Shown: in pieces, positions 14,631 to 33,362 of the stretch
Layout of the letters: each line of letters starts with the position of its first letter
How positions within the stretch are numbered: position 1 is the stretch's first letter
NCBI RefSeq assembly: GCF_008728855.1
Contig: NZ_CP042906.1
Coordinates: 496,001 to 560,000 of the forward strand
DNA: 64,000 nt
Direction: 5' to 3'
From: Hypericibacter terrae
Lineage (GTDB): Bacteria > Pseudomonadota > Alphaproteobacteria > Dongiales > Dongiaceae
Notes under the pieces: generated by a model
Told to the model about the DNA's origin: nothing
What the model saw: the letters and a program-made list of their open reading frames with translations, nothing else
Databases searched by the model: none
Translations under genes and position numbers: made by a program

Positions 14631-15842
14631 ATGCTCGACGGTTTGACCAACGCGCCCGCGACCGATCTGCGGATCGAGCCGGAGAACGTCCTCGATCCGC
14701 GCCATTATGCCGGCGTGCGCGAGCAGGGGCCGCGGCTCCATGCGCTGCCGCTCTGGTGCTACAGCTCGCCGAAATTCTTCCAGGCCGAGATGGAGAAGCT
14801 GTTCTATCCCGGCTGGAACATGATGGAGCGGCTCGACCGCGTGCCCAACAAGGGCGACTTCCACACGCTCACCTTCATGAACATCCCGCTGGTGATGGTG
14901 CGCGGCAGCGACGACAAGGTCCGCGTCTTCGCCAACACCTGCCGCCATCGCGGCGCGCTGGTGGCCGAGGGCTCGGGCAACTGCAAGAGCTTCCGCTGCC
15001 CCTATCACGCCTGGGTCTATTCGCTCGAGGGCGACCTCTTGGGCGCGCAGCAATATAGCGACGGCGAGGACGTGCCGCTCGTCACCGACGAGAACAGGCG
15101 CGAGTTCGGGTTGATCGAGATCCCGAGCGACAGCTGGGGCGGCTTCCTGTTCGTGAAGTTCCGCAAGGGCGGCGAGAGCCTGGCCGACTTCCTCGGCGGC
15201 CTGCCGGCGGTGCTGGCCTCGCACCGGCTCGAGGACATGGTCTGCACCAACCGGCTCGTCTTCGACATGGACGCGAACTGGAAGGCCTTCGTCGAGAACT
15301 ACAGCGACGGCTATCACATCCCGACGGTGCACAAGGATTCGCTGGCGCGCTGGAAGGCCAAATATACGCGCCAGCCGCCGCCGCCCAACGGCAACTACAC
15401 CATCGCCTTCGCCGAGCATGAGGGCAGCCAGCTGCTGCTGCCCTTCCCGGACTATGTCGGCTTTCCGGCGATGCCGCAGATCGAGAAGCCCTGGGACAAG
15501 GGCACCTTCTTCGTCACGATCCGGCCCGGCATGATGATGACGATGGGCAATGACGGCGCGCTCGCCTTCTGCTGCGAGCCGACCGGCCCCACCACCTCGC
15601 GCCTGACGGTGAGCTCGCTGTTCCCGAAATCCACGGTCGCCCGCAACGATTTCGAGGAGATCGCGAAGAACTACTACCGCCGCAACGGCATCGTGGTGAA
15701 GGAGGACGTCGACATCTCGCTGCGCCAGGCGGCCGGCATCGCCTCGCCCTTCGCGCGGATGGTGACCCTGCAGAAGCTGGAGAAGCCGCTCAACCAGATC
15801 GCCAACTGGATCCTGGACAAGGTGCTCGGCCCGACGGCCTGA
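14631..15842 (+). CDS. Rieske [2Fe-2S] ring-hydroxylating oxygenase, alpha subunit
   Basis: A 403-residue protein of normal length. The Rieske cluster ligands are all present: Cys104 and His106 in NTCRHRGAL, Cys123 and His126 in FRCPYHAWVY. The mononuclear iron motif is ENYSDGYHIPTVH with bridging Asp226 and iron ligands His229 and His234. The enzyme would take electrons from a separate reductase and insert oxygen into an organic substrate, which may be aromatic, a quaternary amine or another compound. No beta subunit, ferredoxin or reductase gene is adjacent, so partners must be encoded elsewhere. ATG 14631 has AAGGGAGAG upstream. It is a useful intact comparison for the cluster-less relative at 32160. 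Confidence 0.93.
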   Translation: MLDGLTNAPATDLRIEPENVLDPRHYAGVREQGPRLHALPLWCYSSPKFFQAEMEKLFYPGWNMMERLDRVPNKGDFHTLTFMNIPLVMVRGSDDKVRVFANTCRHRGALVAEGSGNCKSFRCPYHAWVYSLEGDLLGAQQYSDGEDVPLVTDENRREFGLIEIPSDSWGGFLFVKFRKGGESLADFLGGLPAVLASHRLEDMVCTNRLVFDMDANWKAFVENYSDGYHIPTVHKDSLARWKAKYTRQPPPPNGNYTIAFAEHEGSQLLLPFPDYVGFPAMPQIEKPWDKGTFFVTIRPGMMMTMGNDGALAFCCEPTGPTTSRLTVSSLFPKSTVARNDFEEIAKNYYRRNGIVVKEDVDISLRQAAGIASPFARMVTLQKLEKPLNQIANWILDKVLGPTA

Positions 15843-27497: not shown

Positions 27498-28430
27498 TCA
27501 ATAGGCGCTGCTGAGCGATCTCCAGAGGTCGATGTTTGTGTTCGCCACCAGCTCGTCGTGGGCGGCTTCGAGGCAGGAACGCACGTTGTCGAAGTAATGA
27601 CTCACCTCGACCTTTGCTCCACAAGTGGCGTACATCTTGCGCGCCAGGGTGACGCCCTCGATGCCCGATGCCCGTCCGGTTTCGCTCGCAATCGCAGCCT
27701 CGAGCACGCGGCCGTCGGAATCATTGATCGAGTGCCCGCGAGCCGGCAGTGCATTGATCATCTGGTTGGCGAGCCTGATGGCATCGCCAGCTTCGTCGAT
27801 CCGATCGAAGAACTCCGTCCCCACCTCACGGACTGTGCCGGTCGCAATGGCGATCTCGGCTGCGGTTTGTGGATTGGTGTCGTTTGCTGCTGCCATTGGC
27901 ACCAGCGAGACCCGCTCGCCGATATCGATCGCGATATCAAAGAGGCCCAGTTTCGCCAATTCCCCAGGCGGCAGCGTTACCTCGATTGCGGTGAAGCCAC
28001 GATCGGTAGCAAATTCGAGGTAGGGTGTCGCCGATAGCCGCACGTTTTGGCCCAGTCTGTTTGTGCCGCTCAGAACAATTTCGGCGCCTTCGATCGGAAC
28101 ATAGGTCTGCCCTCTTGCCGGATTGTCCCGCGATTGCTGTAGGCAAAAAGTACTAAGATCGGCGCGGCAGCCGTCGTTGAGGCAATTGAGCGGGATGGGG
28201 CCATGGCTCGCGACCACACCGAGGATCTGTGGCGCCGCCTGAGCGCTGCCGGTTGACGTTGTCCAGCCGAACGGCTTCTGCACGGGCAAGACGGTGTCGG
28301 GGTGTACTCCCATGCCCAGCCGGCTTCGATCGTTCAGATCCTCAGCAGCAGTCTCGCCAGAAAACGCCGTCAGTAGGGTCAGGAGCAGGACAAAGCCGAT
28401 AAATCCATTCGGTAGCGGGCGGTACATCAT
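27498..28430 (-). CDS. Hypothetical exported protein
   Basis: 310 residues from ATG 28430, with a signal peptide (GFIGFVLLLTLLTAFSGETA, cleavage after AAA-like TAA near residue 29). The mature protein has five cysteines, two close together in NCLNDGCRADLSTFC (about residues 81-95) and two near the C-terminus (TCGAKVEVSHYFDNVRSC), suggesting disulfides in the periplasm. I recognise no domain. The 200-base gap to the divergent SARP regulator at 28637 contains paired direct repeats, so the two genes may share control. The tail-to-tail gap on the other side (27305-27497) shows nothing. Confidence 0.6.
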   Translation of the reverse strand: MMYRPLPNGFIGFVLLLTLLTAFSGETAAEDLNDRSRLGMGVHPDTVLPVQKPFGWTTSTGSAQAAPQILGVVASHGPIPLNCLNDGCRADLSTFCLQQSRDNPARGQTYVPIEGAEIVLSGTNRLGQNVRLSATPYLEFATDRGFTAIEVTLPPGELAKLGLFDIAIDIGERVSLVPMAAANDTNPQTAAEIAIATGTVREVGTEFFDRIDEAGDAIRLANQMINALPARGHSINDSDGRVLEAAIASETGRASGIEGVTLARKMYATCGAKVEVSHYFDNVRSCLEAAHDELVANTNIDLWRSLSSAY

Positions 28431-31983: not shown

Positions 31984-32159
31984 CATGCAGCCGGTGAGCA
32001 AAAATAGTCCGGCCTCGTATTTCTTGGATGTCGCGCAAGTCCGGACGGACAGGAAGATCGCCGCCGGCCCCGGGTTTGTGCGGGGGCCCCGCAGGCCCTA
32101 TCATGCCCTCATCGCGAGTGCGGATTCCGGGCCTGCTCATTCAGGGGGGAGAGAGCGCC

Positions 32160-33362
32160 ATGTCTTCCGTCGATGCGTTCCTGACCGAGGCGGATCGCCG
32201 CGCGATCCGGGCGCCGATCGAGACGGCGCGCACCTTTCCGCAGATCGCCTACCGCTCGCAAGGCTTCTTCGAGCTCGAGGTCGAGCGGGTTTTCAGCCGC
32301 AACTGGGTCGCGGTCGGGTTCGGCGGCTCCGTGCCTGCGCCCGGCGACGCGGCGCCGGTCGAGATCTTTGGGATGCCGCTGCTGCTGATGCGCGGCGACG
32401 ACGGCGCCCTCCGCGTCTTCCACAATGTCGGCGCCCATGACGGCTGCCCGGTGGTGCTGAAGCGCCGGTCGGGGCCGGGGCCGATCGAGGGGCCCTATCA
32501 TGGCTGGCAGTACGACCTGCGCGGCCGCCTCATCAAGGCGCCGTTCTGGGACGGGACGCCCGATCCGGATGTCGGGCCCTTGCGCGCGCAGGGCGGCGAT
32601 CTCGTGGAGATCCGCTCCGGCCTCTGGCAGGACATCGTCTTCGCCGATCTCTCCGGAAAATGCGCGCCGCTGACCGAGTTCCTGGCGCCGCTGATCGCCC
32701 TCTTCGCCGACCACGATCTCTCGGGCCTCGAGATGGCGATGGACGTTCCCGAGGGCGACGGCGTCCACCGCGTGCTCGCCCGGGCGAATTGGAAGGCGCT
32801 CTGGGAGAACTACGCGCCCAACGTCTATCACGAGGGCTTCGTGCATGAGATGTATCGCCAGTCGAAACATGTGCCGCGCGTCGACGCGGCCGGCAACAAG
32901 ACCTTCACCGAGATCGATGACGGCATCGTCAAGGGGCTGGGCTTCGAGACGGCGCGCGTCAGCAACACCTACCCCGCGGTGACGTTCCCGAAGATCCGGT
33001 CGAAGCGGACCGGCGAGCCGGTCGCGGTCTCCTATATCCTCAATATCTATCCGAACTGGGCGCTGCTGGTGTTCCCGACGCATTTCCGCGTCCGCATCCT
33101 GGCGCCGCTCGATGCGGGGAGCTGCGAGTGGCGGATCGCCAGCTACTACAACGGGGGTGCGGCGCGCGACCCGAGCGCGCTGGCGATGCGGCAGCGAAGC
33201 ATCGCCGGCTCACTCCATGCGGGCCAGGAGGACGACGCCATCTGCGAAGCCGTCCAGCGCGCGCGAGGCTCGCCCGCCCACCGCTCGCATTTCTACTCGC
33301 CCTTCTGGGACCGGATGCATTGGGACTTCAACCGGATGGTGCTGGGGGACTTGGAGAGGTAG
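32160..33362 (+). CDS. Rieske oxygenase alpha-subunit homologue lacking the cluster cysteines
   Basis: ATG 32160, after GGGGGGAGAG, gives 400 residues, full length for a ring-hydroxylating oxygenase alpha subunit. The overall pattern is clear: NWVAVGFGG, then the Rieske-like segment, then ANWKALWENYAPNVYHEGFV with the following His. Both cluster cysteines are gone. The first site reads NVGAHDGCP (Gly91 for Cys, His93 kept). The second reads EGPYHGWQYD (Gly111 for Cys, His114 kept). In the mononuclear iron motif His224 and His229 remain, but the bridging aspartate is Asn221. EDDAICEAVQRAR, near the C-terminus, keeps an acidic candidate for the third iron ligand. The frame is intact, so this is not simple decay. 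It cannot bind a normal Rieske cluster; its chemistry is unknown. Confidence 0.88.
   Translation: MSSVDAFLTEADRRAIRAPIETARTFPQIAYRSQGFFELEVERVFSRNWVAVGFGGSVPAPGDAAPVEIFGMPLLLMRGDDGALRVFHNVGAHDGCPVVLKRRSGPGPIEGPYHGWQYDLRGRLIKAPFWDGTPDPDVGPLRAQGGDLVEIRSGLWQDIVFADLSGKCAPLTEFLAPLIALFADHDLSGLEMAMDVPEGDGVHRVLARANWKALWENYAPNVYHEGFVHEMYRQSKHVPRVDAAGNKTFTEIDDGIVKGLGFETARVSNTYPAVTFPKIRSKRTGEPVAVSYILNIYPNWALLVFPTHFRVRILAPLDAGSCEWRIASYYNGGAARDPSALAMRQRSIAGSLHAGQEDDAICEAVQRARGSPAHRSHFYSPFWDRMHWDFNRMVLGDLER

Follow-up and report, generated by a model that had tools for sequence, protein, structure and literature searches.

We analysed a 64,000-nucleotide window of the Hypericibacter terrae genome (contig NZ_CP042906.1, positions 496,001 to 560,000; positions below are counted from the first letter of this window). 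Its gene at 32160-33362 on the forward strand very probably belongs to a single functional clade of proteins that have the fold of Rieske oxygenases (ROs) without the ligands of the Rieske [2Fe-2S] cluster, and that keep the 2-His-1-Asp iron site. This assignment draws on sequence, on the tree and on the selection acting on relatives. ROs are defined by a cluster that passes electrons over the subunit boundary to the catalytic iron; judged by its residues, the clade shares the RO scaffold yet lacks two of the features that define the family, the cluster ligands and the bridging acid.

The frame is uninterrupted and encodes 400 amino acids; the start at 32160 was preferred over that at 32028, in agreement with the alignment of relatives. 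Both Pfam models recognized in the protein score above their cut-offs, and its two Rieske motifs read NVGAHDG and EGPYHGW. The features are listed here with counts over the aligned proteins (rows), 46 from the clade and 25 canonical ROs:

32160-33362 (+): cluster-free Rieske-oxygenase-like protein, 400 amino acids; from the frame, Pfam, AlphaFold2 and the alignment of relatives.
32301-32546 (+): former Rieske domain, residues 48-129, fold kept and cluster ligands lost; PF00355, 44.5 bits.
32430-32432 (+): Gly91 (GGC) at the first cluster Cys site; Cys in 25/25 canonical rows.
32436-32438 (+): His93 (CAT), first cluster His, retained in the window protein; Tyr in 38/46 clade rows.
32439-32441 (+): Asp94; invariant in the clade (46/46), Arg in 25/25 canonical rows.
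32445-32447 (+): Cys96; Cys in 38/46 clade rows.
32490-32492 (+): Gly111 (GGG) at the second cluster Cys site; Cys in 0/46 clade rows.
32499-32501 (+): His114 (CAT), second cluster His; invariant in the clade (46/46).
32781-33341 (+): catalytic domain, residues 208-394; PF00848, 67.3 bits.
32820-32822 (+): Asn221 (AAC) at the bridging Asp/Glu site, three residues ahead of His224; Asn in 45/46 clade rows, Asp or Glu in 25/25 canonical rows.
32829-32831 (+): His224 (CAC), iron ligand; 46/46 clade rows.
32832-32834 (+): Glu225, adjoining the iron ligand His224; 46/46 clade rows, 0/25 canonical rows.
32844-32846 (+): His229 (CAT), iron ligand; 46/46 clade rows.
33231-33233 (+): Asp358 (GAC, in GQEDD), carboxylate iron ligand; 46/46 clade rows.

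An earlier reading of this DNA from its letters (the sequence-only reading) had reported glycine at both cluster cysteine sites, retention of both cluster histidines, Asn221 at the bridge, and His224 and His229 at the iron. The codons bear out each of these residues, and the third iron ligand, Asp358, which that reading did not mention, is also kept. Because the GGG codon of Gly111 is two substitutions away from either cysteine codon, a single read error is not sufficient to account for it.

The AlphaFold2 model of the window protein, computed with the alignment A2 of its relatives (see below), has a predicted local distance difference test score (pLDDT) of 93.2 and a predicted template modelling score of 0.91, with block means of 92-97 pLDDT across residues 41-130, the region of the former Rieske domain. 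The model, which the sequence-only reading had proposed as a check, retains the two-domain RO fold. The best 50 rows of the structural comparison (Foldseek, VIA-align) are ROs or entries titled putative ROs, and the top match is CntA (Z 36.2, root-mean-square deviation 2.5 over 345 residues). The window protein falls short of every NCBIfam equivalog cut-off; its best score is 76.3 bits for GbcA, against a cut-off of 670. The window genome, a single contig of 5.9 Mb, contains 18 other ROs found by search, all with Cys-x-His and Cys-x2-His. The open reading frame at 14631, which had been offered as an intact relative and built-in control, does have all cluster ligands, but it is a distant paralogue (33% identity over residues 24-230).

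A motif-blind protein search of 385 genomes of the window's class gave two closer relatives, L049 (41% identical) and L050 (39%), which also lack the full ligand set, though differently: the first His is replaced by Tyr and the second Cys by Thr. We then scanned a collection of 84,980 species genomes with a three-row alignment of the window protein, L049 and L050. The scan used two peptide patterns drawn from the loss motifs, and the 49 loci that it yielded are selected for those patterns. Contig ends truncate many of the clade loci. The full-length profile A2, used for motif-blind genome searches, comprises 45 rows; L083, L086, L094, L097 and L100 (partial or broken) and the duplicates (L049 is L063, L050 is L091) are left out. 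All 45 members match both the Rieske (PF00355) and the Ring_hydroxyl_A (PF00848) models, so that automatic annotation will probably label them as Rieske proteins and perhaps assign them a wrong function. They also match the same few NCBIfam RO models as the window protein, by E value and not by cut-off. Scores separate the loci that were read: canonical rows reach at most 255 bits and near-complete clade rows at least 449 bits, with cut or broken clade copies lying between these values and below. Both motifs are present in all 23 canonical loci read by pattern, the first match of L142 being in an unusual context.

In a tree from which columns 91, 93, 111, 114, 220 and 221 were dropped, the 46 cluster-free rows separate from the 25 canonical rows with support of 100/100. 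A tree of 84 rows with these columns left in gives the same split (Shimodaira-Hasegawa-like approximate likelihood ratio test, 100); the canonical rows, 25 in the first tree and 38 in the second, were in both cases chosen by us among the matches. All 25 canonical rows have Cys, His, Cys and His at the cluster sites and Asp or Glu at 221. Within the clade, position 91 is Cys in 35 rows, Val in seven, Gly in three and Thr in one; position 93 is Tyr in 38 and His in eight; and position 111 is Thr in 20, Val in 13, Gly in seven, Ser in four and Ala in two. Position 114 is His throughout, position 221 is Asn in 45 rows and Asp in one (L053), and positions 224, 229 and 358 are invariably His, His and Asp. 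One residue is inserted ahead of Asn221, where all 25 canonical rows have a gap. Every one of the 46 clade rows has Cys91, Cys96 or both; Cys96 is found in at most one of the 25 canonical rows.

Glycine at both cysteine sites occurs in the window protein only (1/46). A clade of Gly/Gly homologues, for which the sequence-only reading had proposed a search, was looked for and not found; the loss was piecemeal, and that of Cys91 (11 of 46 rows) requires at least four changes on the tree. The simplest order, as the alignment suggests it, would be loss of Cys111 on the stem, with the others following piecemeal. L053, the nearest relative and sister of the window gene (57% identical), lacks Cys111 and keeps the other three cluster ligands. 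Its Asp at the bridge is either a retention or a reversal, and in principle it might hold a damaged cluster. Since three ligands and an Asp bridge occur together in L053, the losses of bridge and cluster were not one event everywhere, contrary to the earlier suggestion that they went together.

Pairwise identity within the clade has a median of 38% and a minimum of 29%, and the median identity to canonical rows is 24%. Nevertheless, 35 positions are invariant across the 46 clade rows. Tyr232, like Glu225, is invariant in the clade and present in 0/25 canonical rows, and Gly115, Pro239, Arg240, Tyr271 and Trp383 are clade invariants that are rare or absent in canonical rows. The ratio of nonsynonymous to synonymous substitution rates (dN/dS, method of Nei and Gojobori) is 0.05-0.21 in 14 close clade pairs, the ratios being rough for the seven pairs in which dS exceeds 1; the window gene has no close partner. 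The proposal that selection keeps a cluster-free iron protein thus stands for the clade, with its single origin in the tree, invariant ligands and low dN/dS, the window copy contributing nothing to the last of these. Read error or pseudogenes as an explanation of the clade were rejected on the tree, the invariants and dN/dS, and for the window copy they are nearly rejected.

Genomes with members of clade score numbered 1/96, 3/385, 1/398, 0/369 and 11/61 in the motif-blind searches, whose genome sets overlap. The matches listed are only those beyond E values of 1e-48, 1e-50, 1e-66 and 1e-70 for the searches of 385, 398, 369 and 61 genomes, respectively, and in the first three of these at most four or five first-look candidates were scored per genome. 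With A2, the 398 genomes drawn from across the phylum gave a member only in the window's own genome, and the 369 genomes of the class of G454 gave none of clade score. Among 61 relatives of G275, 11 genomes have members (two, G1105 and G178, by fragments only), and all 11 belong to one family, of which 16 genomes were searched. Ten full-length members were read from this search. In every one, the iron triad, Asp94 and Glu225 are present and both the first cluster His and the second cluster Cys are missing. About six of them are new, and four look, by score and motif, like genes already seen in earlier loci. Five full-length Val91 members (L149-L152 and L158) match no locus of the pattern scan by score and motif, and were either missed by that scan or lie outside the genome collection. 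The one genome of the window's genus that was searched (G001) gave no match of clade score.

Record titles place the clade in Alpha- and Gammaproteobacteria, Myxococcales, Neomarinimicrobiota, Nitrospinaceae, Chloroflexi, Latescibacterota, Acidimicrobiales and Actinomycetota. The loci are mostly from metagenome-assembled genomes and some titles may be wrong; L070 and L073, whose proteins are 98% identical, bear the titles Gammaproteobacteria and Chloroflexi, respectively. Since members occur in named strains, Pseudomaricurvus alkylphenolicus KCTC 32386 (two copies, L068 and L072) and Leucothrix arctica IMCC9719 (L071), and in the single-contig window genome, the clade is not a product of binning. 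No viral relatives were confirmed in one scan of viral contigs. Of plasmid records, 105 match at E 1e-20, and 15 among the matches listed are 26-30% identical.

How might such a protein work? The available part of the CntA study describes two domains that lie 44 Å apart in one chain and electrons that reach the next subunit via Glu205 (PMC7948474). That study found no activity in any of the E205 mutants it made, and in discussing other work it reports that E205D and E205Q lose both activity and electron transfer (PMC7948474). Since CntA E205Q is inactive according to this source, an amide at the bridge should block the normal electron path. The Asn bridge together with the missing cluster ligand would therefore remove the normal electron route in 45 of the 46 rows. 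The iron ligands are the most strictly constrained residues. From this residue pattern, we conclude that the iron is probably used and that its electrons would not be supplied via the Rieske path.

Extradiol and other 2-His-1-carboxylate dioxygenases bind substrate and O2 at Fe(II) and need no external electrons. In the cluster-free clade, the intersubunit electron relay would be gone and the iron would work without a reductase. We think it most likely that Fe(II) would bind an organic substrate and O2 together, with the substrate itself donating the electrons. The result would be a ring- or C-C-cleaving dioxygenase, or an oxidase, and in many members its product might be handed to neighbouring hydrolases. 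Our guess is that the former Rieske domain would still contribute to the trimer interface, where His114, Asp94 and Asn221 would form a remade contact, and that the pocket would have gained Glu225, Tyr232, Arg240 and Tyr271. We prefer substrate-driven activation of O2 because the triad is typical of O2-using enzymes, because the sequence near His224 contains new invariant polar residues and because hydrolases recur in adjacent positions, each of which points only loosely in this direction. The mechanism as a whole, a cluster-free clade with substrate-driven, reductase-independent O2 chemistry, is put forward tentatively, as a reading that comes close to being probable. That a Rieske-fold class evolved once into 2-His-1-Asp iron dioxygenases or oxidases that depend on no electron supply and need no reductase is possible, albeit short of probable.

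The hydrolases were counted within 5 kb of 49 clade loci (L083, L086, L097 and L100 retained, L094 left out) and of 17 canonical ROs of the window genome, the kinds of neighbouring protein being named by Pfam matches of representatives. Metallo-beta-lactamase (MBL)-fold proteins occur at 16/49 clade loci and 0/17 controls (p 0.007), alpha/beta hydrolases of a first kind at 11/49 and 1/17 (p 0.16) and of a second kind at 4/49 and 0/17 (p 0.57), and amidohydrolases at 2/49 and 0/17 (p 1); these p-values treat related loci as independent. Combined, the four kinds are found at 29/49 clade loci and 1/17 controls. A VanA-type query matched 6/49 clade and 9/17 control loci; among the controls it was probably matching the ROs themselves, and the query was not used.

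Several observations weigh against our interpretation. The window gene itself has none of the four hydrolase kinds within 5 kb and no evident operon. The hydrolase test is biased, since its queries were chosen for recurring around clade genes and all its controls lie in a single genome. Flavin amine oxidases (8/49) and luciferase-like monooxygenases (10/49) also recur and could indicate other chemistry. Finally, L053 combines its Asp bridge with three of the four cluster ligands.

The sequence-only reading had suggested another electron source, for which we found no support. A plant-type ferredoxin motif is absent within 10 kb of the window gene, and equally at 0/17 canonical ROs of the genome; it was seen at one of 50 loci (L088). 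As the canonical controls do not discriminate, the ferredoxin result says nothing about the electron source, and the absence of a nearby reductase was dropped as a sign of reductase independence.

Electrons could also come from a partner chain. In a mixed trimer, a canonical RO chain would lend its Rieske cluster to the iron of the cluster-free chain, or the cluster-free chain would be a structural or regulatory subunit. At three loci, a canonical RO gene lies directly upstream on the same strand, with a gap of 1-2 bases or a 4-base overlap (starts set by script):

L075:8848-11200: coupled canonical and cluster-free genes, possible two-subunit pair.
L089:8907-11212: coupled canonical and cluster-free genes, possible two-subunit pair.
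L090:8904-11194: coupled canonical and cluster-free genes, possible two-subunit pair.

L076 likewise has a canonical frame just upstream, canonical ROs were found with the clade profile on nine clade loci (L054, L063, L075, L076, L078, L083, L089, L090 and L099), and L064 and L084 carry further genes with a Rieske motif. However, the close pairs are confined to one subclade (L075, L076, L089 and L090), the nearest other RO found is 16 kb from the window gene, and the acceptor bridge is Asn in 45/46 rows, so that borrowed electrons would face a broken relay. We consider a mixed trimer unlikely.

An unlikely explanation, too, is that the metal site serves lyase, isomerase or hydrolase chemistry, or that the protein only binds a small molecule. 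Such a role would fit a protein that lost the cluster and altered the bridge while its metal ligands stayed strictly conserved, and Glu225, newly invariant and next to His224, could act as a base. The iron ligands are nevertheless identical in letters to those of O2-activating ROs, all 45 members scanned match Ring_hydroxyl_A, and nothing specific indicates a non-redox reaction.

Alternatively, a separate Rieske or ferredoxin protein might dock at the place of the old cluster and donate electrons directly. There is a precedent in NdmC, the N7-demethylase oxygenase of the NdmCDE complex, which the available part of PMC4408171 describes as a non-haem iron monooxygenase that lacks a Rieske cluster and relies on an additional one carried by its reductase, NdmD. 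In our model, however, the former Rieske domain is present and folded and would occupy the docking place, and the bridge is altered in the clade. We regard such docking as quite unlikely.

The old cluster site might instead hold a different metal centre, built from Cys91 or Cys96, Asp94, His93 and His114. His114 and Asp94 are invariant, Cys96 is present in 38/46 rows, and each row retains at least one of Cys91 and Cys96. Independent loss predicts only about two of the 46 rows, which are related, without both cysteines, so the absence of such rows says little; moreover, His93 is replaced by Tyr in 38 rows and Cys91 is absent in 11. We regard this reading as very unlikely.

That the window copy is a decaying gene whose frame was kept by chance is hardly credible. 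In favour of decay, its nearest relative (57%) is too distant for dN/dS of this copy, G001 has no clade-score match, and decayed clade copies exist elsewhere (L094, L158 and L159); against it, the frame is full-length and scores 518.7 bits with the clade profile, the protein has all 35 positions that are invariant in the 46 rows, and its branch has accumulated 0.39 changes per column without a stop.

The decayed copies can be described further. One lies at L094:10001-11068, and L159 looks like the same copy; in both, the first iron His aligns with Arg. Stops lie inside L159 and inside the second copy of L158, where the broken copy adjoins an intact one.

The surroundings of the cluster-free genes show some further features. 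The window gene is flanked by a BON-domain gene and an ATP-binding cassette substrate-binding gene, both on the opposite strand. At 27498-28430 (-), the window has a 310-residue frame with a start that resembles a signal peptide by eye and no Pfam match. In a Myxococcales metagenome-assembled genome (L069:8455-14160), two different cluster-free genes share one cluster, together with an MBL-fold protein, a luciferase-like monooxygenase and a small SnoaL-like protein (by eye). A DUF1579 protein and a protein of about 420 residues follow the cluster-free gene at L056:9631-11439, L060:2452-4229 and L071:11215-12987, in records titled Crenothrix, Methylobacter and Leucothrix; the L060 copy of the longer protein has no Pfam match.

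A literature search with exact phrases in open-licence papers found no description of such a clade, and the available part of a 2025 review mentions no cluster-free RO members (PMC12445004). The clade is in effect a natural experiment that can tell the parts of the scaffold needed for O2 activation from those that serve electron supply only. Should its members indeed turn over without a reductase, they would offer simple, single-component relatives of enzymes whose redox partners make them hard to use. Extradiol and other 2-His-1-carboxylate dioxygenases have folds unrelated to that of ROs, and their likeness to the clade would lie solely in the proposed way of working.

The Group V ROs (CntA carnitine monooxygenase, stachydrine demethylase Stc2 and GbcA) share with the window protein the fold (Z 36.2 for CntA), the two Pfam domains and the 2-His-1-Asp ligands. 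Unlike them, the window protein lacks the Cys2His2 ligand set and has an Asn bridge with one inserted residue before it, and Asp94, Glu225 and Tyr232 are invariants of the clade's own. NdmC, which we set beside the clade by its description in the available part of PMC4408171, is likewise an iron protein of the RO family without a Rieske cluster of its own. In a split RO of the NdmC type, the Rieske domain is absent from the oxygenase chain, having moved to the reductase, whereas the window protein keeps the domain (PF00355, residues 48-129) and only its ligands are gone.
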